Source: Sulfuritalea hydrogenivorans sk43H (GTDB taxonomy: Bacteria; Pseudomonadota; Gammaproteobacteria; Burkholderiales; Rhodocyclaceae). Taken from it: 64,000 nucleotides of DNA. Both the position numbers and the translations under genes were made by a program. The stretch is taken from positions 682,001-746,000 of the forward strand of contig NZ_AP012547.1 in NCBI RefSeq assembly GCF_000828635.1, read 5' to 3'. Below, in pieces: positions 13,779 to 62,789 of the stretch (its first letter is position 1; each line of letters opens with the position of its first letter). The notes below the pieces were generated by a model. The model made no database searches. It saw only the letters and a list, made by a program, of their open reading frames with translations, and had not been told where the DNA came from.

Positions 13779-15059
13779 TCAAAGAATCATGCCGGCGCCG
13801 ACGGTATTGTTGTTGGTTTCGTCGATCACGATGAATGCCCCGGTGCTGCGATTGTCGGCATAGGTATCGACGCACAGGGGCTGCGCAAGTTTGAAGAAGA
13901 CACGGGCGATGTCGTTCATGCCAAGCCGTTCCGCAGGCATCTGTTGCAAACTGTTGATGTCCAGTCGATAACCGATGGCCTCGACGGCCGCCCGGGTTTC
14001 TCGCGTGGTCTGGCGGATCAGGTATTTGCGTTGCGGGTCAAGCGGTGCTTCACCCAGCCAGCAGAGCATGGCCTCGATTCGCCGTGTCACCAGCGCCGAC
14101 TTCTGGGCGCGGACAATCATGTCGCCGCGGGACACGTCGACTTCGTCCTCCAGAAGCAGCGTGACCGACTGCTCGGCAATCGCGCGCGGAAGTGAAGTGC
14201 CGTAAATCTCGATGGCCTTGACGCGTGTTCGTTGTTCCGATGGCAACACCAGCACTTCGTCGCCAACGGCGATCTCGCCTGATTCAACGCGACCCATGAA
14301 GCCACGATAGTCGTGGAGCTTCGGGTCGCCGGCCTTCTGCGGGCGGCAGACGAACTGCACCGGGAAACGGAAAGCTTCATCGCGCTCGCTATGGGCGGTG
14401 GGCGCATTTTCGAGGATGTCGAGCAGTGTCGGACCTTGATACCAGGCGAGTCGTTCGCCGCGATCGACGATCATGTCGCCATTGAGCGCAGACAGTGGAA
14501 TGAATCTGACGTCGCCGATGCCGAGTGTCGCGGCAAACTCCAGGTAGTCGCTGCGGATGCGCTCGTAGCTTGTCCGATCGTAATCCACCAGGTCCATCTT
14601 GTTGATCGCCACGATGATGTGCGGGATGCCGACCAGGTGCGCCAGGTACGAGTGCCGCCGGGTCTGGGTCAGCACTCCCTTGCGGGCGTCGATCAGGATG
14701 ATCGCCAGGTTCGCCGTCGAGGCCGCGGTGACCATGTTGCGGGTGTACTGCTCGTGGCCGGGGGCGTCGGCGATGATGTACTTGCGCCGTCCGGTGCTGA
14801 AGTAGCGGTAGGCGACATCGATGGTGATGCCCTGCTCGCGTTCCGCCTGCAGGCCGTCGGTGAGCAGCGACAGGTCGACCGTCTCCAGCCCGCGCCGCTC
14901 CGAGGTACGTGTAATCGCGTGCAGGGTGTCGGCGAGAATGGTCCTGGTGTCGTAAAGCAGCCGCCCGATCAGCGTGCTCTTGCCGTCGTCAACACTGCCG
15001 CAGGTGAGGAAGCGCAGCAAACCGTTGTCGATCCCCGGCAGGTGTTCGATGGCGCTCAT
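13779..15059 (-). CDS. cysN: Sulfate adenylyltransferase subunit 1 (GTPase)
   Basis: The 426-residue GTPase subunit of ATP sulfurylase couples GTP hydrolysis to formation of adenosine 5'-phosphosulfate. The P-loop GSVDDGKS lies at about residues 21-28, DAPGHEQY forms the G3 box and NKMD the G4 box. The C-terminal half is the EF-Tu-like beta-barrel pair. There is no fused APS kinase (CysC) domain. The start overlaps the cysD stop by one base (TGATG). The segment KSALVTRRI near residues 320-328 is encoded by a copy of the 26-bp dispersed repeat. Confidence 0.95.
   Translation of the reverse strand: MSAIEHLPGIDNGLLRFLTCGSVDDGKSTLIGRLLYDTRTILADTLHAITRTSERRGLETVDLSLLTDGLQAEREQGITIDVAYRYFSTGRRKYIIADAPGHEQYTRNMVTAASTANLAIILIDARKGVLTQTRRHSYLAHLVGIPHIIVAINKMDLVDYDRTSYERIRSDYLEFAATLGIGDVRFIPLSALNGDMIVDRGERLAWYQGPTLLDILENAPTAHSERDEAFRFPVQFVCRPQKAGDPKLHDYRGFMGRVESGEIAVGDEVLVLPSEQRTRVKAIEIYGTSLPRAIAEQSVTLLLEDEVDVSRGDMIVRAQKSALVTRRIEAMLCWLGEAPLDPQRKYLIRQTTRETRAAVEAIGYRLDINSLQQMPAERLGMNDIARVFFKLAQPLCVDTYADNRSTGAFIVIDETNNNTVGAGMIL
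14076..14104 (-). repeat. 26-bp dispersed repeat, copy in cysN
   Basis: On the minus strand it reads AGAAGTCGGCGCTGG then TGACACGGCGAAT, matching the window-wide consensus. It lies in the sense orientation in cysN and encodes KSALVTRRI. Confidence 0.6.
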
Positions 15060-15982
15060 CAAAAGTATCCTTCCTTCTTGCGCTGTTCCATGGAGGCTTC
15101 GGAGGTCTGGTCGTCGAGGCGGGTTTCGCCGCGCTCGGTAATGGTCGTCGTTGCGGTTTCCTCGATGATGCGGGCCACCGTGTCTGCGTCGGACAGCACC
15201 GGTGCGGTGCAGGTGATGTCGCCCACGGTGCGAAAGCGCACGGTCAGTTCTTCGACGACATCGCCCGGCTGCGCCGGCGTCAGTTCGGTCACCGGCTGCA
15301 GCAGGCCGTTCTTTCGCACCACCGCGCGCGGGTGCGCGAAGTAAATCGAAGGCAGTTGCAGGTCTTCGCGTTCGATGTACTGCCACACATCGAGTTCGGT
15401 CCAGTTCGAAATGGGGAAGGCGCGGATGTTTTCGCCCTTGTGCACGCGAGCATTGAACAGGTCCCACAATTCGGGCCGCTGATTTTTCGGATCCCACTGG
15501 CCGAACTCATCACGAAAGGAAAAAATCCGTTCCTTGGCACGGGCCTTTTCCTCATCGCGACGCGCCCCGCCGATGCAGCAGTCGAAGCCGAACTCCTCGA
15601 TCGCTTCGAGCAGCGTCACCGACTGATGCTTGTTGCGCGATTCACCGGGCGTCTTCAGCACGACGGTGCCGCGCTTGATCGAATCCTCGACCGAGCGCAC
15701 GATCAGCCGCTCGTTCAACTGGCAGGCGCGAAAGTCACGAAAGTCGATGACTTCGCTGTAGTTGTGGCCGGTGTCGATGTTGAGCAGCGGAAACGGAAAG
15801 CGACCTGGGCGAAAGGCCTTTTCCGCCAGGCGCAGCAGCACCAGCGAATCCTTGCCACCGGAAAACAGCAGCGCGGGGTTGGCGCACTGGCCGGCAACTT
15901 CGCGCAGGATATGGATAGCCTCGGCCTCCAGCCAATCCAGGTGCGAAAGCGTGGCATGTTGCTGCAGGGCGAGTAAGCTCAT
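15059..15982 (-). CDS. cysD: Sulfate adenylyltransferase subunit 2
   Basis: The 307-residue protein is the catalytic subunit of ATP sulfurylase. It has the PP-loop SGGKDSLVLLRLA near residue 46, VLKTPGESRNKHQSVTLLEAIEEFGFDCCIGGARRDEEKARAKERIFSFRD and FPISNWTELDVWQYI, all typical of CysD. The start ATG overlaps the cysH stop by four bases. The protein acts with CysN to activate sulfate in the cytoplasm. Confidence 0.96.
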   Translation of the reverse strand: MSLLALQQHATLSHLDWLEAEAIHILREVAGQCANPALLFSGGKDSLVLLRLAEKAFRPGRFPFPLLNIDTGHNYSEVIDFRDFRACQLNERLIVRSVEDSIKRGTVVLKTPGESRNKHQSVTLLEAIEEFGFDCCIGGARRDEEKARAKERIFSFRDEFGQWDPKNQRPELWDLFNARVHKGENIRAFPISNWTELDVWQYIEREDLQLPSIYFAHPRAVVRKNGLLQPVTELTPAQPGDVVEELTVRFRTVGDITCTAPVLSDADTVARIIEETATTTITERGETRLDDQTSEASMEQRKKEGYF

Positions 15983-16743
15983 GCTGCAATTTCCTGCTGC
16001 GCAACGCGTTGCAGTTTCCCACCCACCAGATGCAGGCCGCACTCCTTGGTCTCCGGGGTTTCCCACCACCAGCGGCCGGCGCGAACGTCTTCGCCGGGCT
16101 GGATGGCGCGGGTGCAGGGCGCGCAACCGATGCTGGGGTAGCCGCGGTCGTGCAGGCGGTTGTAGGGCACCTCGTTGGCGCGCAGATAAACCCAAACTTC
16201 CGCCTCGCTCCAGTCGGCCAAGGGGCTGGCCTTGACGAGATTGTTCGCCGTGTCCTGGCTGATGACTTTGAGCTTGTCGCGGGTGGTCGACTGCGCGGCG
16301 CGCAGGCCGGTGACCCAGGCGCCCTTGCCGGCCAGTGCGCGCTGCAGGGGTTCTACCTTGCGCGCATGGCAGCAGGCCTTGCGTGCTTCCACCGAGTCGT
16401 AGAAGCCATGGCTGCCGTGGGCGCGGGCGTAGGCCTCGACGGCGTCATGGCGCGGAAAGAAAATGTCCAGCTTGCGGCCGTAGTGCTTTTCCGTCTGGCG
16501 AATGAGGTCGTAGGTTTCCACCGGCAGCCGGCCGGTATCGAGCGAGAACACGCCGATGTTGATGTTCTCGCGCCAGATCAGGTCGGTCAGCACCATGTCT
16601 TCGGCGCCCAGGCTGTTGGCGAAGACCACGGGCGCGTAGTCGCGCGCGATGTTGTGCAGGAGCGCGGCGGCGCGTGTGGCCTTGTCGGCGACGACGTCGA
16701 GCAACTCGGGATTGTCCTGATCGGGCAGGGATTCTCGGATCAT
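15979..16743 (-). CDS. cysH: Assimilatory adenylyl-sulfate (APS) reductase
   Basis: The 254-residue protein reduces activated sulfate to sulfite. It carries the pair Cys124-Cys125 (KACCHARK), Cys207-x2-Cys210 (GCAPC) and the catalytic ECGLH (Cys235). The CC and CxxC cysteines bind a [4Fe-4S] cluster and mark the APS-using form, as opposed to the cluster-free PAPS reductase of E. coli. This fits the absence of a CysC kinase in the operon. It lies between the DUF934 gene and cysD. Confidence 0.95.
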   Translation of the reverse strand: MIRESLPDQDNPELLDVVADKATRAAALLHNIARDYAPVVFANSLGAEDMVLTDLIWRENINIGVFSLDTGRLPVETYDLIRQTEKHYGRKLDIFFPRHDAVEAYARAHGSHGFYDSVEARKACCHARKVEPLQRALAGKGAWVTGLRAAQSTTRDKLKVISQDTANNLVKASPLADWSEAEVWVYLRANEVPYNRLHDRGYPSIGCAPCTRAIQPGEDVRAGRWWWETPETKECGLHLVGGKLQRVAQQEIAA

Positions 16744-16753
16744 GATGTTCTCG

Positions 16754-17281
16754 TCAGGCTACGCGGCGGCGGAAAAGCGGATCGGGCTGGTCGGTGCTCG
16801 CCTGATACACCTCGGGGAAATCGTCGAAGGCAGCCAGCGCTTCTTCGGCACTGCGACCCTCGCCGATCACGAAGGCATCGAAGCCGACGCGCTTGAGGTA
16901 GAACAACTGGTCGCGGCCGATGTCGCCGAAGGCGCGCAGTTCGCCGTCGTAGCCATGGCGTTCGCGCAGCAGGCGCGCGGTGGAGAAGCCGCGGCCGTCC
17001 GCGGCCTTGGGGAAATGCACGGCGATCACCGTGAAATCGTCGATGTCATTGGCGATCTCGGCGACGTCGTCCCCGGGTGAGAGCCAGATGCCGAGCGGCG
17101 TGCCGTGTTCGTACTCGCGGGCGATCAGGCAGGACTTCTTCGCCTTCCAGACCGAGATCGGCACCAGCAGCGGGCCGACCGGCAGGCAGACGTCGAACGG
17201 CGCTTCGCCATCGACCAGGGTCACGATTTTCCACGCGTCATCCTGCAGGCGACGCTCCTTGATGATCTGTTTGTTAGCCAT
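16754..17281 (-). CDS. DUF934 family protein of sulfite reduction operons
   Basis: The 175-residue protein begins MANKQIIKERRLQDDAWKIV and contains PVGPLLVPISVWKAKK, GIWLSPGDDVAEIANDIDDFTVIAVHFPKAADGRGFSTARLLRERHGYDGELRAFGDIGRDQLFYLKRVGFDAF. This is the pattern of DUF934 (COG3749), found next to cysI-type genes in many proteobacteria. Its biochemical role is not established; an auxiliary or electron-transfer role is only inferred from context. It starts eight bases inside the 3' end of the sulfite reductase gene. Confidence 0.85.
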   Translation of the reverse strand: MANKQIIKERRLQDDAWKIVTLVDGEAPFDVCLPVGPLLVPISVWKAKKSCLIAREYEHGTPLGIWLSPGDDVAEIANDIDDFTVIAVHFPKAADGRGFSTARLLRERHGYDGELRAFGDIGRDQLFYLKRVGFDAFVIGEGRSAEEALAAFDDFPEVYQASTDQPDPLFRRRVA

Positions 17282-18968: not shown

Positions 18969-18976
18969 GTCAATTC

Positions 18977-19768
18977 CTATACAAAAATCAGTTTGCCGCC
19001 GACCAGCAGCAGCACGGAGGCGAGCAGGCCGCGCAGCGCCCGTTCCGGCACCTTGGCGGCGAAGTGGGCACCGAGGGCGATGCCCGGCAGCGAGCCGATC
19101 AACAGCGATACGAGCAGCACCACGTCGACCGTGCCCAGCCACCAGTGGCCGAGGCCGGCGACCAGCGTCAGCGGCACGGCGTGGGCGATGTCGGAGCCGA
19201 CGATGCGGCGTGCGGCGAGTTGCGGATAGAGGAAGGTCAGCGCCGTGACGCCCAGCGCGCCGGCACCCACCGAAGAAATCGTCACCAGTACGCCGACGGC
19301 GGCGCCGACGGCGACCGTGAGGCCGGCGACGTGACGATGGGAGAAGTCGGCGCTGGCGCTACGGCGATGCGCCAAGTCCAGCAGGCGCTGGCGAAAGATC
19401 AGCGACGCGGCGGTGAGCAGCAGGGCGACGCCGAGCACGACCGAGATCAATCCCGTGGCGCCATGATCTTTTACGCCGAGCTGCGCCAGCAGCAGCACGG
19501 TCAGGCCGGCGGCTGGAACGCTGCCCAGCGCGAGCCGGCCGGTGATCGCCCAGTCGATGTTGTCATGGCGGTGATGCACCCAGGAACCGCCGCTCTTGGT
19601 GATTGCCGCGTAGAGCAAGTCAGTGCCCACTGCGGTCGCCGGCTTGAAGCCGAACAGCAGGACCAGCAGCGGCGTCATCAGCGAGCCGCCGCCGACACCG
19701 GTCAGTCCGACCAGGAGGCCGACGGCGAAGCCGGACAGCGGAAGCAGGGGATTGAGGATGAATTCCAT
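18977..19768 (-). CDS. TauE/SafE family sulfite or sulfonate exporter-like membrane protein
   Basis: The 263-residue protein has about eight membrane helices and the family glycine-rich signature VGLLVGLTGVGGGSLMTPLLVLLFGFKPATAVGTDLLYAA near the N-terminus, repeated as SSVGAGALGVTALTFLYPQLAARRIVGSDIAHAVPL. Such proteins are proposed to move sulfite, sulfonates or other sulfur anions. The ATG at 19768 is chosen over one four codons upstream. It is the first gene of the sulfur operon, eight bases before the reductase, and may prevent sulfite build-up. A dispersed-repeat copy lies inside it. Confidence 0.88.
   Translation of the reverse strand: MEFILNPLLPLSGFAVGLLVGLTGVGGGSLMTPLLVLLFGFKPATAVGTDLLYAAITKSGGSWVHHRHDNIDWAITGRLALGSVPAAGLTVLLLAQLGVKDHGATGLISVVLGVALLLTAASLIFRQRLLDLAHRRSASADFSHRHVAGLTVAVGAAVGVLVTISSVGAGALGVTALTFLYPQLAARRIVGSDIAHAVPLTLVAGLGHWWLGTVDVVLLVSLLIGSLPGIALGAHFAAKVPERALRGLLASVLLLVGGKLIFV
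19343..19368 (+). repeat. 26-bp dispersed repeat, copy in tauE-like gene
   Basis: It reads GAAGTCGGCGCTGGCG then CTACGGCGAT, very close to the consensus. It is antisense to the gene and encodes HRRSASADF in a loop of the membrane protein. Confidence 0.65.
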
Positions 19769-19805
19769 GATGCAGCGCATCGTAGCGATGTCTTATAGTT
19801 CTGAA

Positions 19806-19824: not shown

Positions 19825-19852
19825 ATATATAACCAGAAGATATAATTTGCCC

Positions 19853-23133: not shown

Positions 23134-23171
23134 TTCCAATTCGAATCGGAATGAGGCCACGCAGCATTTAA

Positions 23172-23197
23172 AAAGTCGGCGCTGGCGACACGGCGAT
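23172..23197 (+). repeat. 26-bp dispersed repeat, intergenic copy after pmbA
   Basis: It reads AAAGTCGGCGCTGGCG then ACACGGCGAT and lies between the convergent pmbA and the spermidine-synthase-like gene. A second partial unit (GCTACGGCGA) follows at 23214-23223, over the stop codon of the minus-strand gene. Confidence 0.65.
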
Positions 23198-34401: not shown

Positions 34402-35046
34402 ATGAGCACGGCACGGATCACCCGGTTCTGTTTCGTCCGTCACGGCGAGACCGACTGGAACGGCGAGAAGCGGATTCAGGGGCAGATCGACATCGACCTC
34501 AACGCAGCCGGCGAAGCGCAGGCCCGGGCGGTGGGTGTGGGCCTGGCGAAGCATTCCTTTGCCGCCGCATACAGCAGCGATTTGCTGCGCGCCTGGCGCA
34601 CGGCGCAGATCGCCACCCGCGGCCTCGGCCTCGCCGTGTCGCCAGCGCCGACTCTTCGCGAACGCAATTTCGGCGTATTGCAGGGCATCACCGTGCAGGA
34701 AGCCAGCGTCCAGCGTCCGGAGGCGCATCGCCACCATCAGGCGCGGACACCGGATTACAACTATGAATCCGGCGAATCCCTGATTGCCTTCGCGGCCCGG
34801 GTCGCGACCGGGCTCGAAGCCATGGCCGCACGCCACGTCGGCCAGAGTGTGCTGGCTTTTACCCACGGCGGCGTGCTTGACGTCGTCTATCGCGCCGCTG
34901 CCGGCAGGGCGCTGGATGTGCCGCGCGATTTTCAGTTGCCGAACGCGGCATTCAACTGGCTGGAATACGACGACAAGGGTTGGCGGCTGATTTCCTGGGC
35001 CGATTGCAGCCATCTTCAGCGGGTGCTCGACGAGATGCTCGAATAA
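34402..35046 (+). CDS. Histidine phosphatase family protein (phosphoglycerate mutase-like)
   Basis: The 214-residue protein carries the catalytic RHGETDWNGEKRIQGQIDIDLNAAGEAQA (RHG at about residues 12-14), the second arginine motif SDLLRAWRTA, LRERNFG, and the second histidine in FTHGGVLDVV. It belongs to the branch including GpmB, CobC and broad phosphatases; the substrate cannot be told from sequence. The segment AVSPAPTL just before LRERNFG is encoded by an antisense copy of the dispersed repeat. It follows the GntR gene by 10 bases. Confidence 0.88.
   Translation: MSTARITRFCFVRHGETDWNGEKRIQGQIDIDLNAAGEAQARAVGVGLAKHSFAAAYSSDLLRAWRTAQIATRGLGLAVSPAPTLRERNFGVLQGITVQEASVQRPEAHRHHQARTPDYNYESGESLIAFAARVATGLEAMAARHVGQSVLAFTHGGVLDVVYRAAAGRALDVPRDFQLPNAAFNWLEYDDKGWRLISWADCSHLQRVLDEMLE
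34630..34657 (-). repeat. 26-bp dispersed repeat, copy in phosphatase gene
   Basis: On the minus strand it reads GAAGAGTCGGCGCTGGCG then ACACGGCGAG. It lies antisense to the gene and encodes AVSPAPTL. Confidence 0.6.
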
Positions 35047-36873: not shown

Positions 36874-37971
36874 ATGAGTTTTTCGGCCGTCGACCATGGC
36901 TTCATGGCGCGCGCCCTGCAACTGGCGCGGCGCGGCCTGTACAGCACCACTCCGAATCCCCGCGTCGGCTGCGTCATGGTCCGAGATGGCAGCGTGATCG
37001 GCGAGGGCTGGCACGAGCAGGCCGGCCTGCCGCATGCGGAAGCCGTCGCGCTGAATGCAATAGTCGGCGCTGACGGTACGGCGAAGGGCGCCACTGCCTA
37101 CGTCACGCTGGAACCCTGCAGCCATTTCGGCCGCACGCCGCCGTGCGCCGATGCGCTGATCGAGGCCGGTGTCGCCCGTGTCGTGGTCGCGATGCAGGAT
37201 CCGAATCCGCTGGTGGCCGGGCAGGGCATGGCCAGGCTGGCCGCCGCCGGCATCGAGGTTGCCAGCGGCCTGCTTGAAGCCGAGGCGCGGGAACTCAACA
37301 TCGGTTTCGTTTCGCGCATGACGCGCGGCCGGCCCTGGCTGCGGCTGAAAGTGGCGGCCAGCCTCGACGGCAAGACCGCGCTCAACAACGGTGTCTCGCA
37401 ATGGATCACCGGGCCCGACGCGCGACGCGACGCCCACGCCTGGCGTGCCCGTTCCTGCGCGGTGCTGACCGGCATCGGCACGGTTCGGGACGACAATCCG
37501 CGACTTACCGTGCGCGAGGTTCAGACCACGCGCCAGCCGCTGCGGGTGGTGATCGACAGCCGGCTCGAAACGCCGCCGGATGCCGCCGTGCTGGAAGGCG
37601 GCCACGTGCTGATCGCCGCGGCACGGGACGATGCCGCGCGCAGCGCCGCGCTGCGCGCACGCGGCGCCGAGATCGTGCTGCTGCCCAATGCCGAAGGCAA
37701 AGTGGAACTCGCCGGCCTCATGCAGGAGCTCGGCCGGCGCGGCATCAACGAAGTGCTGGCCGAAGCGGGCACGCGGCTCAACGGCTCGCTGCTGCGCGAA
37801 GGCTGCGTCGACGAGCTGCTGATCTATCAGGCACCGATGCTGATCGGCGACGCCGCGCGCGGGATGTTCGGCCTGGCGGAACTCAGCGATCTGGCGGGGG
37901 CACGACGTCTCAACATCATCGAACGCCGTGTCGTCGGCGCCGACTTTCGCATTCGAGCCCGTTTTGCGTGA
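36874..37971 (+). CDS. ribD: Riboflavin biosynthesis bifunctional deaminase/reductase RibD
   Basis: The 365-residue enzyme carries two steps of riboflavin synthesis. The deaminase domain has the zinc motifs PHAEAVALN and TLEPCSHFGRTPPCADALI. The reductase domain begins near residue 148 (PWLRLKVAASLDGKTALNNGVSQWITGPDARRDAHAWRARSCAVLTGIGTV). Between the zinc motifs, IVGADGTAK (codons 63-71) is encoded by a dispersed-repeat copy and looks like extra residues compared with E. coli RibD. A second copy lies antisense at the 3' end and encodes RVVGADF. Confidence 0.95.
   Translation: MSFSAVDHGFMARALQLARRGLYSTTPNPRVGCVMVRDGSVIGEGWHEQAGLPHAEAVALNAIVGADGTAKGATAYVTLEPCSHFGRTPPCADALIEAGVARVVVAMQDPNPLVAGQGMARLAAAGIEVASGLLEAEARELNIGFVSRMTRGRPWLRLKVAASLDGKTALNNGVSQWITGPDARRDAHAWRARSCAVLTGIGTVRDDNPRLTVREVQTTRQPLRVVIDSRLETPPDAAVLEGGHVLIAAARDDAARSAALRARGAEIVLLPNAEGKVELAGLMQELGRRGINEVLAEAGTRLNGSLLREGCVDELLIYQAPMLIGDAARGMFGLAELSDLAGARRLNIIERRVVGADFRIRARFA
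37060..37085 (+). repeat. 26-bp dispersed repeat, internal copy in ribD
   Basis: It reads ATAGTCGGCGCTGACG then GTACGGCGAA, sense to ribD, encoding VGADGTAK between the two zinc-binding motifs. Confidence 0.6.
37922..37948 (-). repeat. 26-bp dispersed repeat, copy at ribD 3' end
   Basis: On the minus strand it reads GAAAGTCGGCGCCGACG then ACACGGCGTT. It overlaps the last codons of ribD and the possible start of the next gene. Confidence 0.55.
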
Positions 37972-41114: not shown

Positions 41115-42398
41115 CTAGCGATTGCTGGCCCATTTCAGGGGATCGAACGGCTGGCCCCGATGCCTGAGTTCAAAGTATAAACCCGAGTCCGGGTTGCCGC
41201 CGCTGTTTCCCACCGTGGCGACGGATTCACCACTTTTCACCGTGGCGCCCACGGCTGCCAGCAGGGATTCGTTATTGCCGTAGACGGAGAGGAAATCGTC
41301 GCCGTGATCGATGATCAGCAGGTTGCCGAAGCCGCGCAGCCAGTCCGAGAAAACCACCGCGCCGGCCGCCACCGCCTTGACCTCGGCGCCTTCGGCGGCG
41401 CGGATGAAGACGCCTTTCCAGCTGGCGCCGCCTTCCGCGCGCGGACTGCCGAAGCGCCCGGCGATGCTGCCCTTGATCGGCAGGCGGAGTTGCCCGCGCA
41501 GGGCGCCAAATGCGCCCCCGACATTGCCCGGATCGTGGCTTTTGAGCTTCGGGGTTCGTGCAATCGCCGTACCGCCAGCGCCGACTCTCGGGGCCGCCCG
41601 TTTTGTCGCGGCGATGCGGGCCAGTCCTTCGATCAGCCTGGCCAGGCGCTGCTCGTCGCGCTTGAGCGTGGTGATTTCACGGCGCTGTGCCTTGAGCTTC
41701 TCGGCAATCGCCGCCAGCGTCGTCAGTCGCTGCTTCTTGCGTTCGAGCAACTGGGCGCGGCTTTCCTGTTGCCGACGTTCGATCTCGGCCAGCTGCGCCT
41801 GCCGCTCGCGCGCGGCGTCGGCCAGCCGCTTCTTTTCGGCGGCGACGGCGCGCAATTGCTGGATCAGGTCGGCCTTGGCGCGTGAAAGCTGGGTCAGGAA
41901 GTATTTGTCGCGTGCCGACTGGTTGGGGTCGCGGCCGGACAGCAGGAGCTTCAGCGCATCCGAATCGCCGCCGACAAACTGGCGGTTCAGCAAACGGGCC
42001 AGCTGGTTCTGCTGGGCACCTGCCTGGCGGTCCAGGCGCTGACCCTGCACATCGAGATCGGCCAGTTCGGCTTTCAGCTCGGTGCGTTCGGCACCGAGTT
42101 CATGCAGGCGCCGGTTGGCGTTCGAGATGGCCGATTCGGTCTCGCGCAACTGGTCGGCGGCATAGGTTTTCGATTCCTCGGCCGCCGCCATGTCGCGACG
42201 CAAGGCTTCGATGCGGCTTTTCAGGTCCTGCAGTTCGCCCTTCTTCGAATCGACGCTGGCGGCGAAGGCCGTCGAAGCGAGAAGAGAGGCAAGGCAAAGA
42301 GCTTTGACGCAAAGACGCAAAGACGCAAAGAAAATCGAAAGAACTGTTTTAGCTTGTGCCTTCCTTTGCGTCTTTGCGTCTTGGCGTCTAGGAATCAC
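41115..42398 (-). CDS. envC: Murein hydrolase activator EnvC-like (peptidase M23)
   Basis: The 427-residue periplasmic protein has a signal region ending SLLASTAFA, a long coiled coil (about residues 47-260, [26 protein letters not shown] onward) and a C-terminal LytM domain ([25 protein letters not shown] to [19 protein letters not shown]). The expected zinc histidines are incomplete: the first HxxxD position is replaced (SWKGVFI), so it is probably a catalytically inactive activator like EnvC. The N-terminal 30 codons come from a GACGCAAAG palindromic repeat, and residues about 270-279 come from the 26-bp repeat. Confidence 0.85.
41562..41589 (-). repeat. 26-bp dispersed repeat, copy in envC-like gene
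   Basis: On the minus strand it reads GAGAGTCGGCGCTGGCG then GTACGGCGATT, sense to the gene, encoding [10 protein letters not shown] in the linker between coiled coil and LytM domain. Confidence 0.65.
42303..42390. repeat. Palindromic repeat of GACGCAAAG units at the envC start
   Basis: The left arm (42305-42331) has three GACGCAAAG units. The right arm (42364-42388) has the complementary CTTTGCGTC units with small differences. About 30 bases lie between. The element would fold into a long hairpin and encodes DAKTQRK and FASLRLCVK in the minus-strand gene. Similar coding segments recur in many unrelated genomes from memory, where they mark a dispersed palindromic repeat. Confidence 0.75.
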
Positions 42399-44284: not shown

Positions 44285-44740
44285 ATGAGCGACGAGCAGC
44301 CGGTTTTCAGCATCGAAAAGATTTACGTCAAGGATCTTTCCATCGAAGTGCCCAATGCGCCGCAGATCTTCCTGGAGCGCGAGACCCCGAGCATCGAAGT
44401 GCAGATCCAGAGCACGGCGAACACCATTGGCGAAGGCATGTATGAAGTGGCGCTGACGGTCACGGTGAGCGCCAAGGAAGGCGAAAAGGCGTTCTTCCTG
44501 GTCGAGGTGGTGAAGGCCGGCATCTTCCAGGTGCGCAACGTGCCGGAAGGCGATCTGGAACCGATCCTCGCCGTGGCCTGCCCGAACATTCTCTTCCCCT
44601 ATGCCCGCGAAACGGTGTCCGACGCGATCAATCGCGCCGGCTTCCCGCCGGTGATCCTGGCCCCGGTCAACTTCGAATCGCTCTACCAGCAACGCCTGAT
44701 GGAACAGCAGCAGGGCGAAAGCCGGATCCAGCTGCAATAG
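44285..44740 (+). CDS. secB: Protein-export chaperone SecB
   Basis: The 151-residue cytosolic chaperone has FSIEKIYVKDLSIEVPNAPQIF, the family start, and CPNILFPYARETVSDAINRAGFPPVILAPVNFESLY. SecB keeps precursors unfolded and hands them to SecA. It follows grxC by 35 bases. A dispersed-repeat copy begins two bases after its stop. Confidence 0.96.
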   Translation: MSDEQPVFSIEKIYVKDLSIEVPNAPQIFLERETPSIEVQIQSTANTIGEGMYEVALTVTVSAKEGEKAFFLVEVVKAGIFQVRNVPEGDLEPILAVACPNILFPYARETVSDAINRAGFPPVILAPVNFESLYQQRLMEQQQGESRIQLQ

Positions 44741-44742: not shown

Positions 44743-44770
44743 GAAAGTCGGCGTTGGCGCTACGGCGATT
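44743..44770 (+). repeat. 26-bp dispersed repeat, copy at the start of the SH3 gene
   Basis: It reads GAAAGTCGGCGTTGGCG then CTACGGCGATT, directly after the secB stop. The TTG at 44754, inside it, is the likely start codon of the next gene. Confidence 0.7.
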
Positions 44771-45194
44771 CCCCACCTTTTTGATGGCTCTGGCGGCCAG
44801 CCTGCCGGCATGGGCACTGGATTACCGCAGCGTCGCCGAGGCGGCGCCGATGTACGACGCGCCGTCGACCAAGTCCAAACCTTTGTTCGTGGCGCTTGCC
44901 GGTACGCCGGTGGAACTGGTGGTCAGCCTCGACGGCTGGTCCAAGGTGCGCGACAGCCGGGGCGACCTGACCTGGATCGAAAAGAAGTATCTGGCGGAAA
45001 AGCGCAATGTCATCGTGCGTTTCGATCGCGCCCAGGTCCGCGCCGCTGCCGACGACAAGGCGGCGCTGGTGTTCGAAGCGGAACGCGACGTGGTGCTGGA
45101 ACTGCTTGAAGCCGCTTCCGGCGGCTGGGTCAGGGTGAGGCATCGCGACGGGCAATCCGGTTTCATCAAGGCGCCCCAGGTCTGGGGCTTGTAA
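44754..45194 (+). CDS. Exported SH3 domain protein
   Basis: From the TTG at 44754 the product has 146 residues with a good signal peptide (MALRRFPTFLMALAASLPAW, cleaved after AWA). Two SH3-like units follow (YRSVAEAAPMYDAPSTKSKPLFVALAGTPVELVVSLDGWSKVRDSRGDLTWIEKKYL and the second half ending DGQSGFIKAPQVWGL). Such proteins bind cell-wall material. The only ATG nearby (44784) would leave a signal peptide without its arginine pair. The n-region is encoded by the repeat. The gene lies between secB and gpsA. Confidence 0.82.
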   Translation: MALRRFPTFLMALAASLPAWALDYRSVAEAAPMYDAPSTKSKPLFVALAGTPVELVVSLDGWSKVRDSRGDLTWIEKKYLAEKRNVIVRFDRAQVRAAADDKAALVFEAERDVVLELLEAASGGWVRVRHRDGQSGFIKAPQVWGL

Positions 45195-46223: not shown

Positions 46224-46688
46224 CTACGAGCCGCCGGCGTATCCCTGTTGCCGCCAGGCTTCATAGACCATCACGGCCACGGCGTTCGACAGATTCAGGC
46301 TGCGATTGCCGGGGATCAGCGGCAGTCGCAGGCGATGGTCCGGGTCGATATCGGCCAGCACGTGTTCAGGCAGTCCGCGCGATTCGGAACCGAAGACGAA
46401 GGCATCACCCGGTCGGCAGTCGGCGCCGGCATGACGGCGCATTCCCTTGGTGGTCAGCGCAAACAGCCGGGCGCCGCCGAGCGCGGTGCGGCACGCCGCC
46501 CAGTCCGGGTGCACCGTGACGCATGCCATCTCGGCGTAATCCAGCCCCGCGCGGCGCAACTGGGCGTCGGACAGGTCGAAGCCGAGCGGTTCGATCAGAT
46601 GCAGTTTTGCCCCCGTATTCGCGCAAAGCCGAATGACATTCCCTGTGTTGGGCGGGATCTCCGGGGCGACGAGCACGACATGGAACAC
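46224..46688 (-). CDS. trmL: tRNA (cytidine/uridine-2'-O)-methyltransferase TrmL
   Basis: The 154-residue SPOUT enzyme begins (GTG start) MFHVVLVAPEIPPNTGNVIRLCANTGAKLHLIEPLGF. It has LTTKGMRRH, FGSESRGLPEHVL and IPGNRSLNLSNAVAVMVYEAWRQ, the three SPOUT motifs. It methylates the wobble position 34 of tRNALeu. Residues HAGADCRPGD between the second and third motifs overlap an antisense copy of the dispersed repeat. Confidence 0.94.
   Translation of the reverse strand: MFHVVLVAPEIPPNTGNVIRLCANTGAKLHLIEPLGFDLSDAQLRRAGLDYAEMACVTVHPDWAACRTALGGARLFALTTKGMRRHAGADCRPGDAFVFGSESRGLPEHVLADIDPDHRLRLPLIPGNRSLNLSNAVAVMVYEAWRQQGYAGGS
46417..46445 (+). repeat. 26-bp dispersed repeat, copy in trmL
   Basis: It reads CAGTCGGCGCCGGC then ATGACGGCGCATTCC, antisense to trmL, with one base shifted compared with the consensus. 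It encodes RRHAGAD. Confidence 0.5.
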
Positions 46689-50279: not shown

Positions 50280-50798
50280 ATGACCCTGAAATCAGGCCGC
50301 ACTTCATCGCTTGCACGTGGCTTCACACTCATCGAACTGGTGATCGTCATCACCATCATCGGCATTCTTGCCGCCGTCGCCCTGCCGCGCCTGATCGACG
50401 CTCAGCGCGATGCGCGCATCGCCAAGGCCAATGCGATTTATGGCTCGATCCGCTCTGCTGTCGCTTTGGCCCGCTCGCGCTGCGAGCTGGATATTTCAGG
50501 CGTGGCACCGAGCGCCACCGCAGTCAATTGCGCATCGACACCGCCCAAGGTGAACATGGACGGCACCATGGTGGATATCGTCAATCGCTACCCGGCGGCC
50601 ACGGCGGCCGGTATCGACGTCGCCGCAGCCTTGAACCCGACCGCCGATGGCCTGACGCCCGGCGGAACGGGAACCACCCGGACTTTCGACGTGGCCGGCG
50701 GCACCCTGCCCAACTGCCGGATTACCTATCAGGAGGCGACACTCAGCGGCACAGCCATTGTTGCGCCGGTGATTTCGGTGGTAAGTTCAGGCTGCTAG
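50280..50798 (+). CDS. mshB: Type IV pilin, MshB-like
   Basis: The 172-residue prepilin has the leader MTLKSGRTSSLARG and cleavage before FTLIELVIVITIIGILAAVALPRLIDAQRDAR, the class IVa pattern with Glu5. The mature part has a cysteine pair region (RCELDIS and NCASTPPK, then NCRITYQ and a final SGC) for a C-terminal disulfide loop. It ends VISVVSSGC. It is longer than the next pilin and probably the minor one. It lies in the mshE-mshG operon. Confidence 0.85.
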   Translation: MTLKSGRTSSLARGFTLIELVIVITIIGILAAVALPRLIDAQRDARIAKANAIYGSIRSAVALARSRCELDISGVAPSATAVNCASTPPKVNMDGTMVDIVNRYPAATAAGIDVAAALNPTADGLTPGGTGTTRTFDVAGGTLPNCRITYQEATLSGTAIVAPVISVVSSGC

Positions 50799-50851
50799 CG
50801 GTAAAGTATTGCAAAAGATTCAGGCAGGACTCAATTTCTCGGGAGATGGAT

Positions 50852-51208
50852 ATGAAACAAAAAGGTTTTACGCTGATCGAATTGGTAGTGGTGATCGTGA
50901 TACTCGGCATTCTGGCGGCCACCGCATTGCCGAAGTTCATTGACCTGTCGGGTGACGCCAAAACGGCGGCGGTTGACGGGGTAGCGGGCGCAATGGGATC
51001 GGCAATGTCCGTGAACTACGCGTCGCGGAAGGTGAACTCAAGTTATGGAACCGCCGTGACCGATTGCAATACCGGAGCGGTGTTGCAGGGGGGGTTGCCG
51101 ACCGGCTATGTGGTTACAGGGGGCGCCATTTCCGCCGACGGCACGGCGACGTGCACCGTAACCGGTAACGGAATCGGCCGGACGTTCACTGGCATGGGCA
51201 TCAATTAA
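50852..51208 (+). CDS. mshA: Type IV pilin, MshA-like (probable major pilin)
   Basis: The 118-residue prepilin has a very short leader (MKQKG) and the mature start FTLIELVVVIVILGILAATALPKFIDLSGDAKTAAVDGVAGAMGSAMSVNYAS, close to Vibrio MshA. A GGGAG lies six bases upstream of the ATG. The pair of cysteines (DCNTG and TCTVT) could form the D-loop disulfide. It is the last gene of the first msh operon, and a terminator follows within 50 bases. Confidence 0.85.
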   Translation: MKQKGFTLIELVVVIVILGILAATALPKFIDLSGDAKTAAVDGVAGAMGSAMSVNYASRKVNSSYGTAVTDCNTGAVLQGGLPTGYVVTGGAISADGTATCTVTGNGIGRTFTGMGIN

Positions 51209-51210
51209 GC

Positions 51211-57675: not shown

Positions 57676-57713
57676 ATTTGCGCGGAGCATGATTTCTGCT
57701 GAAATAGGCTCCC

Positions 57714-58550
57714 ATGTACCTCAATCACTTCGGCCTCCATGAATTTCCATTCGGCATCACGCCGGACACCAGCTTCATCTATTCCGCCGACGCGCACCAG
57801 GAAGCCCTCAACACCCTGTTGATCGGCCTTAATACGGGTGAGGGCTTCATCAAGATCACGGGTGAAGTCGGTACCGGCAAGACTTTGCTGTGCCGTCGCT
57901 TTCTGGCAACGCTCGGCGATGACCAGGTGGTCGCCTACCTGCCCAATCCGATGCTGGAGCCACGCATCCTGCTTATCGCGATCGCCGAGGAACTCGGCCT
58001 CAAGCTTCAGGGCCTCGACTACCAGTTCCATCTCCTGAAGGAGTTCAACCAGCATCTGCTGGACATGGCCGCACAGGGAAAGAAGGTGGTGATCTGCATC
58101 GACGAGGCGCAATCCATGCCGCTGGCAAGTCTGGAGGCGCTGCGGCTGCTGTCGAATCTTGAAACCGAAAAATCCAAGCTGCTGCAAGTTGTGATGTTCG
58201 GCCAGCCAGAACTCGACGAGAAGCTGTCCAATCCCGCAGTGCGCCAACTACGTCAGCGCATCGTGTTTCACTACCGGATGCCGGGGCTCAAGCAGCAGGA
58301 GTCGGCGCATTACCTGGCCCATCGGTTGCGCGTGGCCGGGCATCGCGATGGGGACGTTTTTCAGCCGGGCAGTGCGCGCTTGCTGTTTCGCCTGTCCAGC
58401 GGCACGCCGCGCCTGGTGAATGTGCTGGCACACAAGTCGATGCTGCTGGCCTACGGCGAGGGCAAGACCCGCGTGAGCCGCAACCACGTCCTGCTGGCGG
58501 GCCGCGATACCGAAGGCCTGCCCCCGCTGCACTGGTGGCAACGGTGGTGA
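57714..58550 (+). CDS. mshM: MSHA biogenesis ATPase MshM (ExeA-like AAA)
   Basis: The 278-residue AAA ATPase begins MYLNHFGLHEFPFGITPDTSFIYSADAHQEAL. It has Walker A GEVGTGKT (residues 50-57) and Walker B VVICIDEAQ (about 124-132), with a sensor region GTPRLVNVLAHKSMLLAYGEG. ExeA-type proteins help place secretins. The gene follows mshL by 38 bases. Confidence 0.92.
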   Translation: MYLNHFGLHEFPFGITPDTSFIYSADAHQEALNTLLIGLNTGEGFIKITGEVGTGKTLLCRRFLATLGDDQVVAYLPNPMLEPRILLIAIAEELGLKLQGLDYQFHLLKEFNQHLLDMAAQGKKVVICIDEAQSMPLASLEALRLLSNLETEKSKLLQVVMFGQPELDEKLSNPAVRQLRQRIVFHYRMPGLKQQESAHYLAHRLRVAGHRDGDVFQPGSARLLFRLSSGTPRLVNVLAHKSMLLAYGEGKTRVSRNHVLLAGRDTEGLPPLHWWQRW

Positions 58551-58566
58551 TCGCCCTCCGCCGGGC

Positions 58567-58642
58567 CGCCCCAAGGGGGCGCAGCCATCTTATGGAGCCG
58601 CTTAGCGGCGAACCACCGTCACCCCCTGCCTTGGGCAGGGGG
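58567..58642. repeat. Three tandem GC-rich hairpins upstream of mshN
   Basis: Hairpins are CGCCCC/GGGGCG (58567-58581), GCCGC/GCGGC (58597-58609) and CCCCCTGCC/GGCAGGGGG (58622-58642). They fill the mshM-mshN gap. The pattern recalls a betaproteobacterial intergenic palindromic repeat, from memory. It may stop, pause or stabilise the transcript. Confidence 0.6.
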
Positions 58643-58662
58643 GTGGGGGGGAGGGTAGTTCG

Positions 58663-59733
58663 ATGAGCCTGGTCAACAAGATGTTGCGCGACCTCGATGC
58701 GCGCCGCGCCGGAGAAAGCGACCGTGCCGCCTTGCCCGCGGCGGTGACGCCCCTGGCGGCGCGTCAGGAACCGCGCCGGGGTCTGCCGCCGCTGTGGTTC
58801 GGCCTCGCGTTGGCGGCCGCGGGCCTCGGTGCCGCGGCGTGGTACGGAATGCAGCCGGCCATCCCCGAGCCGGCAGTCGCAACGCCCGTCGCGGCAGCAC
58901 CCGCAGCGGCTCCGAAACCCGAACGTGTCGAGCCTGCCGTTGCACCGGAGGCGGAGAAGCCCGCTTCGATGTCCTTGCGCATGGCCGATGCGCTGTCAAT
59001 GACTCCGGCGGCTGGCAGCGCGCCGCCGCGCAAGGCCGTGGCGGCTGCGCCGAAGCTGCCCGAGCAAGCGGCCGTTGCTGTTGTGCCGCCGCGTCAGCCG
59101 GTGGTGGCTTTGCCCAGGGTTCCGGCGACTGCGCCCGATGCTCGCATCGACAAGCAGGTGCGCTTGCCGTCACCGGCTGAACGGGCGGAGCTTGAATACC
59201 GGCGCGGCGTTCAGGCACAGCGCCAGGGCCACGTGGAAGACGCCGCTGCCAGCTATCGCGTGGCACTTGAGGGCTATCCCGAACATGCCGCGGCACGCCA
59301 GACACTGGCCGCACTGCTGATCGAGCTAAGGCATTACGACGACGCGGAAGAACTCTTGCGCAAGGGCGCCGAACTGGCCCCGGTGCGTTTGGCGTCGGCC
59401 CTGGCCCTGGCGCGACTGAAGGTCGAGCGCAACCAGGCGCCGGCTGCGCTGGATATCCTCCTGAAACATGCGGCCGCTGGCGAGGGCAGCGCCGAGTACC
59501 AGGGATTTGCCGGCGCGCTGCTGAATCGTGCCGGTCGCGTTCAGGAAGCGGTCGAGCGCTACAAGGCGGCGACGCGCCTGGCGCCCGGCGAAGGCCGCTG
59601 GTGGGCGGCTCTGGGCATTGCGCTCGACGCCTCGGGGAAAATTCCGGAAGCGCGCGATGCATATCTGAAAGCGCGTTCGCTGCCGGGCCTGCCGGCCGAT
59701 CTGGCGCAGCACATCGAGCAGCGCTTGCGTTAG
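58663..59733 (+). CDS. mshN: MSHA biogenesis protein MshN (TPR)
   Basis: The 356-residue protein starts MSLVNKMLRDLDARR, close to the MshN start SVINKMLQDLDKR. It has one membrane helix (LWFGLALAAAGLGAAAWYG, about residues 44-62), an Ala/Pro-rich linker to about residue 165 and TPR repeats from residue 175 (YRRGVQAQRQGHVEDAAASYRVALEGYPEH and later units). It is the last gene of the second msh operon, separated from mshM by a hairpin cluster. Confidence 0.85.
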   Translation: MSLVNKMLRDLDARRAGESDRAALPAAVTPLAARQEPRRGLPPLWFGLALAAAGLGAAAWYGMQPAIPEPAVATPVAAAPAAAPKPERVEPAVAPEAEKPASMSLRMADALSMTPAAGSAPPRKAVAAAPKLPEQAAVAVVPPRQPVVALPRVPATAPDARIDKQVRLPSPAERAELEYRRGVQAQRQGHVEDAAASYRVALEGYPEHAAARQTLAALLIELRHYDDAEELLRKGAELAPVRLASALALARLKVERNQAPAALDILLKHAAAGEGSAEYQGFAGALLNRAGRVQEAVERYKAATRLAPGEGRWWAALGIALDASGKIPEARDAYLKARSLPGLPADLAQHIEQRLR

Positions 59734-59747
59734 CCGGCGCGCCTCGA

Positions 59748-60137
59748 CTAACCGATCTGCTGTTCCGCCACCGCCAGTTTGCTTTGCGCCCAGGTACGAA
59801 GCGGCCCCAGTGGCCCGGTGAGATTGGCCCACGAATCGAACATCGAACGTTTCTGCTTTTCGCGCAGATTGTCCTCGGCGCGGACGAAGTTCTGGATCTG
59901 CTCCTGAATCAGTTCCCGTGCCCGGTCTTCGGCCCGGGTCTGCACCATGCGCAGCGCGTCCCGCGCCGAGTATTCGGCGGAGATCGCATACGGCAGCGGC
60001 ATCGAGGTCGCCAGGCGCGCAACTTCTCGCAGCGTGTCGGCGCGCTCGATGGAGGCAATTTGCGCATCGCAGCGTGCGGTGAATCGACGCACTTCCATGC
60101 GTATCAGGTTTTTGTCGACAGGATCGCGAAGCGCCAT
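59748..60137 (-). CDS. Hypothetical protein of 129 residues
   Basis: The soluble, mainly helical protein starts MALRDPVDKNLIRMEVRRFTARCDAQIASIERADTLREVARL and contains RAEDRARELIQEQIQNFVRAEDNLREKQKRSMFDSW. I recognise no family. It is convergent with mshN and lies 36 bases downstream of comF on the same strand. Confidence 0.6.
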   Translation of the reverse strand: MALRDPVDKNLIRMEVRRFTARCDAQIASIERADTLREVARLATSMPLPYAISAEYSARDALRMVQTRAEDRARELIQEQIQNFVRAEDNLREKQKRSMFDSWANLTGPLGPLRTWAQSKLAVAEQQIG

Positions 60138-60173
60138 GATTGTCTATCCCGGAGTCATTCGATGGCGCTGATT

Positions 60174-60887
60174 CTACAGCGGCCCCCGGTCCTTCAGCGC
60201 CCGCGCCAGCACGCGATTCTCCACGCGCGACGCGCCATGCGCCTTGAGCGTTCGCGCCAGTTCGTCGAGGGTGGCACCGGTGGTCATCACGTCATCGACC
60301 ACCAGCACGGTCTTGCCGCCAAGGTCGAGATCGCATTCGAAGGCGTGGCGGATGTTTTTCGCCCGCTCCTTCCATGGCAGGCTGGCTTGCGGTCGGGTGT
60401 CGCGGCGACGGTGAATATGGTCGAGTTCCAGAGCTGTTCCCAGGGCGCGTGCCAGCGGCCGCGCAATCTCAACGGCTTGATTGAAGCCACGTTCCACGAG
60501 GCGTGCGCGGGAGAGGGGCACGGGCACGATCAGGTCGGGGCGCAGCGGTACGGCGATTTGTGCGAGGGCGCTGCCGAGAAAGTCGGCGCTGGCGAGACGG
60601 TGAGCGTATTTGAGCGCCTGGACCAGGCTGTCGATCGGAGCTTCGTAGCGGAAGACGGCGTGCGTCGCATCGAAATGCGGCGGTTGCTTCAGGCAGGCCC
60701 CGCAGACGCTGGAATCCGGGGTCGGCAGCGCGCAGACGGGGCAGCGTGCGGCGCTCAAATACGGCAGCCCGGCGGCGCACGATGGGCACAGCAGCTTGTC
60801 GTCGGCAGGCGCCGCGCAGAGGAAGCAGTCCTGCGGCAGCAGGGCGGCTGCGCAGCTTTTCACCGCCTTGGCCAGACCTGTGGCCAT
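60174..60887 (-). CDS. comF: ComF family phosphoribosyltransferase-like protein
   Basis: The 237-residue protein has an N-terminal zinc finger region ([46 protein letters not shown]) and a PRTase domain with [26 protein letters not shown] and [18 protein letters not shown], the PRPP-binding loop. ComF aids DNA uptake in natural transformation. The segment [10 protein letters not shown] is encoded by an antisense copy of the dispersed repeat. An ATG at 60887 is used; TTG at 60905 would add six residues. It is divergent from bioB. Confidence 0.9.
60578..60603 (+). repeat. 26-bp dispersed repeat, copy in comF
   Basis: It reads GAAAGTCGGCGCTGGCG then AGACGGTGA, antisense to comF. A related fragment GGTACGGCGATT lies 30 bases before it (60546-60557). 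Confidence 0.6.
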
Positions 60888-60961
60888 ACCCGCTGCAATT
60901 GACAAGCCCGGCTCCTTCCACCAAGATTCGCGCCTTCCCGCATTCTAGCGAGTCCGCTGCG

Positions 60962-61963
60962 ATGACCGCCACAGCCGCCCCCCAAACCGCATCCCCCGCC
61001 GCATCTTCCTCCACATCCTCCGCCTTTGTTCCGGCCCCGCGCTGGACCACCGAGGCCCTCGTCGCCCTGTTCGAGCTGCCTTTCAGCGACCTGATGTTTC
61101 GCGCCCAGGAAGTGCATCGGGCCAACCACAAGGCCAATGCCATCCAGCGCTCGACCCTGCTGTCGATCAAGACCGGCGGTTGTTCGGAGGATTGTGGCTA
61201 CTGCTCGCAATCGGCGCATCACGGCGAAGCGCAGCGCGAAGCGCTGCTGGAAGTCACCGATGTGGTTGCCGCGGCGCAGGCCGCCAGGGACAAGGGCGCC
61301 ACGCGCTTCTGCATGGGCGCCGCCTGGCGTGGTCCGAAGGACAAGGATCTCGACCGCGTCACCGACATGATCGTTGCGGTCAAGGCGCTCGGCATGGAAA
61401 CCTGCGTCACGCTCGGCATGCTGAAGGAAGGCCAGGCCAAGCGGCTGAAGGAAGCCGGGCTCGACTACTACAACCACAACCTGGATACGGCGCCGGAGTT
61501 CTACGGCCAGGTCATCACCACCCATGCCCAGAGCGAACGCTTCGACACCCTCGATCGCGCCCGCGAGGCAGGCATCAAGCTGTGCTGCGGCGGCATCGTT
61601 GGCATGGGCGAAACGCGGCGCCAGCGCGCCTCGCTGCTGGTCGAGCTGGCCAACATGAGCCCGCCGCCCGAGTCGGTGCCGATCAACGAGCTGGTGCCGA
61701 TGCCCGGCACGCCGCTGGAAAACGCGCCACCGCTCGATCCCTTCGAGTTCGTCCGTACCATCGCGGTGGCGCGCATCACCATGCCCGGCTCGATGGTGCG
61801 ACTCTCCGCCGGTCGTCAGGAGATGAGCGACGAGTTGCAGGCACTGTGTTTCCTCGCCGGCGCCAATTCGATTTTCTACGGCGACAAGCTGCTGACGGCA
61901 GGCAACCCCGAAGCCGATCGCGACGAAGCCTTGTTCGCGCGGCTGGGACTGACTTCCGCCTGA
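60962..61963 (+). CDS. bioB: Biotin synthase
   Basis: The 333-residue radical SAM enzyme inserts sulfur into dethiobiotin. The CxxxCxxC cluster motif is CSEDCGYC (about residues 73-80), with downstream [15 protein letters not shown] and RLSAGRQEM, including the [2Fe-2S]-binding arginine. The N-terminus has a low-complexity Ala/Ser/Thr stretch of about 25 residues. The ATG at 60962 is chosen. bioC follows after seven bases. Confidence 0.96.
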
Positions 61964-61970
61964 CCGCCCC

Positions 61971-62789
61971 ATGCGCGACGACTTCGCGCGCGCGGCCGAA
62001 TCCTACGACTCGGCTGCGGTCCTGGCCCGCGAAGTGGGCGCTCGCATGGCGGCCCGGCTCGATCTGGTAAAGATCGCTCCCGCGCGCGTTGCCGACATCG
62101 GCTGCGCCACGGGCGACGGCATCCGCGAACTGCAGCAGCGCTATCCGAAGGCGCAGGCGCTGGCGGTCGATTACGCGCTGCCCATGCTGCGCGCCGTCAA
62201 GGACCGCACGCCGCTCACCCAGCGCATCATGCGCCGCGCGCCGCGGCTGGTAAATGCCGATGTGCGTGCCTTGCCGCTGGCCGCCAACTCCCTGGGCCTG
62301 GTCTGGTCGAATCTGATGCTGCACTGGTTGGACGATCCGCTGCCGGCCTTGCGCGAATTGCACCGCGTGCTGGAAGTCGGCGGCCTGCTCAGCTTTGCCA
62401 CGCTCGGCCCCGACACGCTGAAGGAATTGCGTGCCGCGGCGGCGAAAGTCGGCGCCGGCGATACGGCGCGGCGCTTCCTCGACATGCACGATCTGGGCGA
62501 CATGCTGGTGGCCGCCGGCTTTGGCGATCCGGTGATGGACATGGAGCTCGTTACGCTGACCTATGCGGCGCCGCGTGCCTTTCTCGCCGATCAGCGCCAC
62601 CTCGGTGTACGCGATGCATTGCTCGGTCATCAGGGCTGGCGCGACTGGCGGCGCTTGCTCGGCGCCTGGCCGCGGGATGCCGAAGGGCGGCTTCCGGCCA
62701 GTTTTGAAATCGTCCATGGCCATGCCTGGAAACCCGAGCCGCGGCAGATCGCCGACGGGCGCGCGGTGGTGAAGTTCCATTCGCGATGA
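61971..62789 (+). CDS. bioC: Malonyl-ACP O-methyltransferase BioC
   Basis: The 272-residue methyltransferase has FARAAESYDSAAVLAREVGARMAARLDLV, motif I VADIGCATGDGIRELQQRYPKAQALAVDYALPML, LVWSNLMLHWLDDPLPALRELHRVLEVGGLLSFATLGPDTLKELR, the BioC hallmark. It masks malonyl-ACP to start pimelate synthesis. KVGAGDTAR (codons 158-166) is encoded by a copy of the dispersed repeat, just after the DTLKELR motif. It ends overlapping a small basic gene by four bases. Confidence 0.92.
   Translation: MRDDFARAAESYDSAAVLAREVGARMAARLDLVKIAPARVADIGCATGDGIRELQQRYPKAQALAVDYALPMLRAVKDRTPLTQRIMRRAPRLVNADVRALPLAANSLGLVWSNLMLHWLDDPLPALRELHRVLEVGGLLSFATLGPDTLKELRAAAAKVGAGDTARRFLDMHDLGDMLVAAGFGDPVMDMELVTLTYAAPRAFLADQRHLGVRDALLGHQGWRDWRRLLGAWPRDAEGRLPASFEIVHGHAWKPEPRQIADGRAVVKFHSR
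62444..62468 (+). repeat. 26-bp dispersed repeat, copy in bioC
   Basis: It reads GAAAGTCGGCGCCGGCG then ATACGGCG, sense to bioC, encoding KVGAGDTA. Confidence 0.6.

Follow-up and report, generated by a model that had tools for sequence, protein, structure and literature searches.

A dispersed 26-bp motif of Sulfuritalea genomes as a candidate DNA uptake signal

Introduction

What keeps hundreds of near-identical copies of a 26-bp sequence on a bacterial chromosome, on both strands and in large part inside genes? The question is raised by a 64-kb stretch of Sulfuritalea hydrogenivorans sk43H (positions 682001-746000 of the complete 3.80-Mb genome, here G000; "the window" denotes this whole stretch). 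A preliminary description made from its sequence alone had pointed to a family of at least eleven repeats, predicted hundreds of copies in the genome, and offered two readings, a mobile or amplified element tolerated in loops or a DNA uptake-type signal. As far as the available parts of the sources cited in this paper go, uptake sequences are described in Neisseriaceae and Pasteurellaceae (PMC5031613; also PMC8897410, PMC1626085), and their occurrence in two families leaves open their origin and any dependence on a mucosal life style. On the basis of the abundance, distribution, mode of origin, and DNA-level conservation of the motif, we consider it probable that it is a self-recognition signal of the DNA uptake sequence (DUS) kind.

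Results and discussion

The motif in the window and in the genome

The motif, RRRAGTCGGCGCTGGCGNNACGGCGA, carries 35 bits summed over its 26 positions in an 861-kb sample of the genome (the window and 40 further stretches), and the information falls to 0.1-0.2 bits per position immediately beyond it, giving sharp bounds and hardly any conserved flank. Scored against the 22 specified bases of AGTCGGCGCTGGCGNTACGGCGA, all 11 places listed in the window do hold a copy, two without mismatch, four with one mismatch, three with two, and two degenerate ones (37922 and 46417) with four. The 8-mer AGTCGGCG is present in all 11, as had been noted of the core, and is found 19 times in the window against 5.07 expected and a maximum of 12 in 100 shuffles; three of the 19 lie in the ribosomal region, where, again as first described, there is no copy of the motif, none being found within five mismatches in the first 13.7 kb. 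The reversed pattern has no match in the window at up to four mismatches and one at five, so that two extra five-mismatch places (24658 and 48614) are at chance level. The copies are indeed mostly inside genes, with nine of the 11 within genes called by our own gene caller and two intergenic. The consensus needed amendment in two respects: the gap between the halves is two bases, not a single variable one, and the 5' end has to be extended to three purine-rich positions to give 26 bp.

The prediction of hundreds of copies proved correct, in that the complete genome holds 638 within three mismatches and none of the reversed pattern. Within four mismatches the 861-kb sample contains 161 copies (24, 44, 52, 20, and 21 with zero to four mismatches, respectively) and, again, no reversed match, and the top-ranked over-represented 10-mer in it is AGTCGGCGCT (123 seen, 9.3 expected). 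All 161 copies are invariant at G1, C3, G4, and C17 (numbered from the first A of AGTCGG as position 0), whereas variation is seen in the middle pair of bases, among the 5' purines, and at the final base. Such a conservation profile befits a recognised site and not a repeat in decay.

With the same gene caller, 100 of the 161 sample copies fall within genes, 60 between genes, and one at an edge, about 80% of the sample being coding. All six reading frames are used, three of them by 86 of the 100 genic copies, and the commonest (43 of the 100) gives Gly/Ala-rich peptides. The copies are spaced as by chance (mean of 3.7 and variance of 4.0 per 20 kb), and two adjacent inverted pairs that form hairpins are found among the 161. 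A Pfam comparison of a stretch with zero copies (475001-495000; 10 of 15 called genes) and one with nine (570001-590000; 10 of 13) gave no clear contrast. Separately, the stretch G000:C1:1900001-1920000 (L268), with about 55% GC against 63% in the sample, scarcely any typical codon usage, and not a single copy of the motif, is probably acquired DNA.

Distribution in the genus, family, and order

All 31 genomes of the genus that were searched (the present one included) carry the motif, in 35 to 697 copies; three are copy-poor (G016, 35; G021, 134; G025, 195), and the remaining 28 hold 315-697. In the same draw, six genomes of the family that belong to other genera have at most two copies each, and 24 from other families of the order at most four. 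A broader sample of the order, 349 genomes searched within two mismatches, included 10 other members of the family; among these, the genus g32 has 72 and 166 copies in its two genomes, g36 has 172, and the remaining seven have zero to two. Outside the family, 35 genomes have one to five copies each, which is little more than the reversed control yields (24 genomes with one each). In g32 the motif ends in ACGGCA where the consensus has ACGGCGA: all listed copies of G186 (27 of 27) and G061 (14 of 14) have A following ACGGC. In G284 this base is G in 15 of 16 copies, and in G000 it is G in 156 of 161, where the search pattern itself favoured G. The stretches listed for this purpose were partly chosen for known matches and thus support base counts, not densities. 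A sequence variant is fixed by lineage in another genus of the family. In a tree of 12 concatenated window genes, the copy-poor G025 groups with G016; as some of the genes look paralogous or transferred, the tree carries little weight and cannot tell loss from non-gain.

Exact copies were also seen outside the family in G071, G181, G184, G331, and G338 (exact or near-exact at G071:C3:26363 and 30923), and these may mark transferred DNA. In IMG/VR, 36 stretches hold an exact copy, proviral flanks possibly being among them; copies with one to three mismatches number 63 per Mb in these stretches versus 130 per Mb in the host sample.

Origin of the copies

Window genes were aligned with their orthologues from ten other members of the genus and six genomes of other genera; an alignment around the intergenic copy at 23171 had too many gaps and was left aside. 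Across 150 genus/outgroup protein pairs (46 coding copies in seven genes, with motif-free outgroups), no insertion of at least seven residues was found at a copy, and motif-free orthologues of equal length exist. For the comF-like, methyltransferase, and histidine-phosphatase genes, the aligned outgroup proteins are gapless at the copy, which takes the place of poorly conserved residues. At the copies, 27% of amino acids are identical to those of other genera, as opposed to 55% in control windows. Gaps of any size occur in 20 of the 150 pairs (13%) at copies against 2% in control windows placed at random in these genes and not matched for looseness; the mean net gain at copies is 0.4 residues, and the surplus is what one would expect of loops. 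These alignments indicate that the copies arose in place, without insertion, at permissive positions. The idea of an element tolerated in loops thus survives in its second half, the loose positions, and not in its first.

That insertions are visible in such alignments when they do occur is illustrated by a hairpin element resembling repetitive extragenic palindromic (REP) sequences, which strengthens the negative result for insertion of the motif itself. This element, TATG-stem-GGTATC..GA, starts with TATG or CATG, followed by a short stem and then GGTATC, and interrupts the motif at one exact position, between a RAAAGT-like and a CGGCGCTGG-like sequence. Right-half matches lacking AGT number 63 of 224 in the G000 sample and are mostly due to chance (49 in the reversed control), with REP-like words upstream in 10 of the 63. 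A stricter pattern yields 12 interrupted copies, eight in the 861-kb sample and four in relatives (Table 1), with an insert whose length is a multiple of three in 11 (24, 27, 39, or 42 bp) and 22 bp in one. The element is also found free-standing and in tandem, and the SpoU-type gene of G004 has a similar eight-residue insert. This pattern suggests that the motif serves the REP-like element as a target where insertion is tolerated. A further case is the ribD orthologue of G023 (L211-L213 block), where a 12-residue in-frame insertion, whose sequence is not explained, splits a motif copy at a position different from that of the REP-like element.

Conservation at the DNA level

Synonymous conservation was assessed for copies chosen in one species only, by scoring the codons of degenerate amino acids that are identical between species. 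Among copy-rich species, codons are identical in 536 of 644 comparisons inside copies with at most one mismatch versus 9,435 of 14,890 outside, the amino-acid identity being 0.83 at copies and 0.84 outside. Against the copy-poor G025 and G016, the corresponding counts are 53 of 82 inside and 2,071 of 3,423 outside, with an amino-acid identity of 0.47 at copies versus 0.82 outside; against other genera, they are 34 of 90 and 2,290 of 4,648. With copies of up to two mismatches, codon identity is higher inside at all eight orthologous sites, at one of them by 0.69 versus 0.68 only. This contrast shows that the motif is maintained at synonymous sites in the copy-rich species and not in their copy-poor relatives.

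Competence genes

The presence of comF in the window had been said to prove nothing, and we agree; more broadly, ComEC is found in 30 of the 31 genus genomes and DprA in 12 of 13 tested. Pilin-type N termini number 11 in G000 (one of them unconfirmed) and 10-26 in ten other genomes, and a FimT-like minor pilin is encoded in 27 of the 31. The window itself has two adjacent type IV pilin-like genes at 50280-51208, coding for 172 and 118 aa, the first of which is 82-89% identical in five members of the genus. Matches to TIGR00426, the ComEA family, that stay below the cut-off occur in 19 of the 31 genomes in open frames of 550-940 aa, which we take to be Tex. Matches to the HHH_3 domain lie mostly in frames of 778-836 aa.

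A candidate uptake signal and its rivals

Our reading of the motif as a self-recognition signal proposes the following course of events. A surface receptor of the competence apparatus would prefer double-stranded DNA bearing RRRAGTCGGCGCTGGCGNNACGGCGA; fragments from kin that carry the motif would be taken up and recombined more often than others; motif-carrying alleles would thereby spread, and mutated copies would be overwritten; and, by substitution and recombination, hundreds of copies would accumulate on both strands wherever gene function permits. Biased uptake of DNA as the process behind the maintenance, and likewise the existence of such a receptor, are what we infer from the pattern. 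The likeness to known systems is one of features. Like the DUS of Neisseriaceae, which number hundreds to thousands and whose receptor is ComP, the motif has many dispersed, highly conserved copies in permissive places of the core genome (PMC2397512, PMC3630211). Dialects between genera have their parallel here too (PMC2397512, PMC3630211), and the two inverted pairs may correspond to those described for the Neisseria DUS (PMC2397512). In Neisseria such pairs are found at transcription terminators. The indifference of the motif to replication direction likewise accords with a signal of this kind. DUS are absent from recently acquired genes (PMC2397512, PMC3630211), the counterpart of which is here a low-GC proxy only. 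With the uptake signal sequences (USS) of Pasteurellaceae the motif shares a core with flanking segments that contribute (PMC7811141, PMC12616744); its second block, in contrast, is GC-rich (ACGGCGA), where USS have AT tracts. In Verminephrobacter, another betaproteobacterium, sequence-limited uptake is suspected and no motif is named in the part of the source available (PMC4212676). No report of uptake sequences in Sulfuritalea or Rhodocyclaceae was found among the papers listed from the openly licensed PubMed Central (PMC) literature, which does not prove their absence from print, and of 16 papers there in which part of the motif core is printed, the 15 listed bear unrelated titles.

Several observations weigh against this reading. 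ComEC, DprA, and pilins are present also in the copy-poor G016 and in motif-free genera, and therefore do not track the motif. ComEA is over the TIGR00426 cut-off in none of the 31 genus genomes, though ComEC is present in 30, and HHH_3 has no match at E<=1e-5 in G000 and G012. The copy-poor G016, by comparison, has three HHH_3 matches whose frames are shorter (181-314 aa) and which could be ComEA-like, whereas the reading would lead one to expect the reverse. The minor-pilin operon with the FimT-like gene is highly diverged and occurs both in copy-rich and in copy-poor species, and no motif-specific receptor was found among the FimT-like and minor-pilin candidates examined; a role of FimT as the conserved receptor finds no support, given its divergence and its failure to distinguish copy-rich from copy-poor genomes. 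Unlike in the DUS systems, then, there is no canonical ComEA over the cut-off in the genus, and no counterpart of ComP was identified. At 26 bp the motif is longer than the 10-12 bp of DUS, and at about one copy per 5-6 kb it is sparser than the signals of Neisseria and Haemophilus, for which about one per 1 kb is given (PMC2397512, PMC7811141). Stretches of 20 kb free of copies are not in excess in the 861-kb sample. Fourteen low-GC 5-kb bins (<59% GC) hold one copy against 13.1 expected, which would speak for the reading, but low GC is a proxy for foreign DNA in this comparison, and the scarcity may partly be due to composition, because the motif is GC-rich and its density rises with GC throughout the 172 bins (Spearman 0.37). 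The synonymous test, finally, has a base of 14 copies (at most one mismatch) or 28 (at most two) at eight sites, with pairs that are not independent. It is because ComEA is not over the cut-off and the FimT-like pilin does not follow copy number that we go no further than calling the uptake signal probable; it is the best-supported reading, unproven, of a system whose competence gene set is not fully canonical.

The same long, information-rich, and sharply bounded motif, conserved at the DNA level, could in principle be a chromosomal binding site of an intracellular protein acting in nucleoid organisation, recombination, or repair (a Chi-like site, for instance), selected at about 640 places. 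The lack of a canonical ComEA would be of no consequence for such a site, and a bipartite motif suits any DNA-binding protein. Chi and KOPS, however, show an orientation bias along the replichores, whereas the motif lies on the leading strand in 83 of 161 copies (P=0.75, with the terminus placed by the GC skew of the sample), on which count we reject a replication-oriented site and a Chi-type recombination site in particular. Further, the low numbers in G016, G021, and G025 imply that the organisms get by on few copies, be it that others were lost or that they were never acquired, and the sequence varies between genera. We therefore regard an intracellular binding site as rather unlikely.

REP sequences and Rickettsia palindromic elements are short dispersed repeats, some of which lie inside genes, and the hundreds of near-identical copies recall them. 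On this view an element of 26 bp, mobile or amplified, would have entered genes in frame and now be decaying. Such an element could also account for the 60 intergenic copies of 161 in a genome with a noncoding share of about 20% and for the short gaps at copies (13% of pairs versus 2%), and insertion into the motif does occur, by a genuine REP-like element. The motif, unlike these repeats, has a consensus that is not self-complementary, and it did not arise by insertion: the 150 orthologue pairs show no insertion of seven or more residues at a copy and include motif-free orthologues of the same length, the core positions are invariant and decay is not uniform, synonymous sites are conserved, and orthologous copies are common to several species. 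This makes a mobile origin very improbable. Chance, a codon-usage artefact, or a common protein motif, for which the GC-rich sequence and the Gly/Ala-rich peptides of the commonest frame might speak, deserves practically no credence; reversed patterns (0 against 638) and shuffles rule out chance, six frames and intergenic places are used, and genomes outside the family have 0-5 copies each.

Returning to the uptake signal, one may conceive of a bolder version, tentative and short of an even chance, in which Sulfuritalea and other genera of the family form a third, independently evolved uptake-sequence lineage, with a long 26-bp signal, a putative receptor, competence without canonical ComEA, and a REP-like element for which the uptake motif is a docking site, in frame and harmless. 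Within a single genus for which mucosal habitats are not known, copy numbers run from hundreds to dozens, with a sequence variant in another genus, and such a series would allow tests of origin, loss, and receptor co-evolution. The uptake reading, if true, would imply frequent sex among the largely uncultured Rhodocyclales.

Copies in the window and other repeats

The copies of the window and the interrupted copies are listed in Table 1; an Rfam scan of the window gave no match at gathering scores.

Table 1. Motif copies in the window, and places of copies interrupted by the REP-like element
Feature	Position	Strand	Context
Motif copy, 2 mismatches	14079..14104	-	Sense, inside 13779-15059(-), EF-Tu-type GTPase domains
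Motif copy, 0 mismatches	19342..19367	+	Antisense, inside TauE/SafE-family gene 18977-19780(-)
Motif copy, 1 mismatch	23171..23196	+	Intergenic
Motif copy, 1 mismatch	34631..34656	-	Antisense, inside histidine-phosphatase-family gene 34402-35046(+); three aligned outgroup orthologues without gap and without motif
Motif copy, 1 mismatch	37059..37084	+	Sense, inside ribD-type gene 36874-37971(+)
Degenerate copy, 4 mismatches	37923..37948	-	Antisense, near end of ribD-type gene 36874-37971(+)
Motif copy, 0 mismatches	41564..41589	-	Sense, variable linker preceding M23 domain of 41115-42320(-)
Motif copy, 1 mismatch	44743..44768	+	Intergenic, between secB-type gene 44285-44740 and gene called at 44784
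Degenerate copy, 4 mismatches	46415..46440	+	Antisense, inside SpoU-methylase-family gene 46224-46688(-)
Motif copy, 2 mismatches	60578..60603	+	Antisense, inside ComF-like gene 60174-60887(-), double zinc ribbon and phosphoribosyltransferase domains
Motif copy, 2 mismatches	62444..62469	+	Sense, inside methyltransferase-domain gene 61971-62789(+)
REP-interrupted copies	G000:C1 stretches starting 190001, 380001, 570001, 1425001, 1710001, 2565001, 3040001		
REP-interrupted copies	L139, L159, L083, L222		

Apart from the motif and the REP-like element, the 861-kb sample has a second dispersed, tandem-like word, about ATCTGCGNAATCTGCGNAATCTGCGGA. Its 10-mer AATCTGCGGA is found at 17 places, and at least two pairs of this word face each other less than 100 bases apart.

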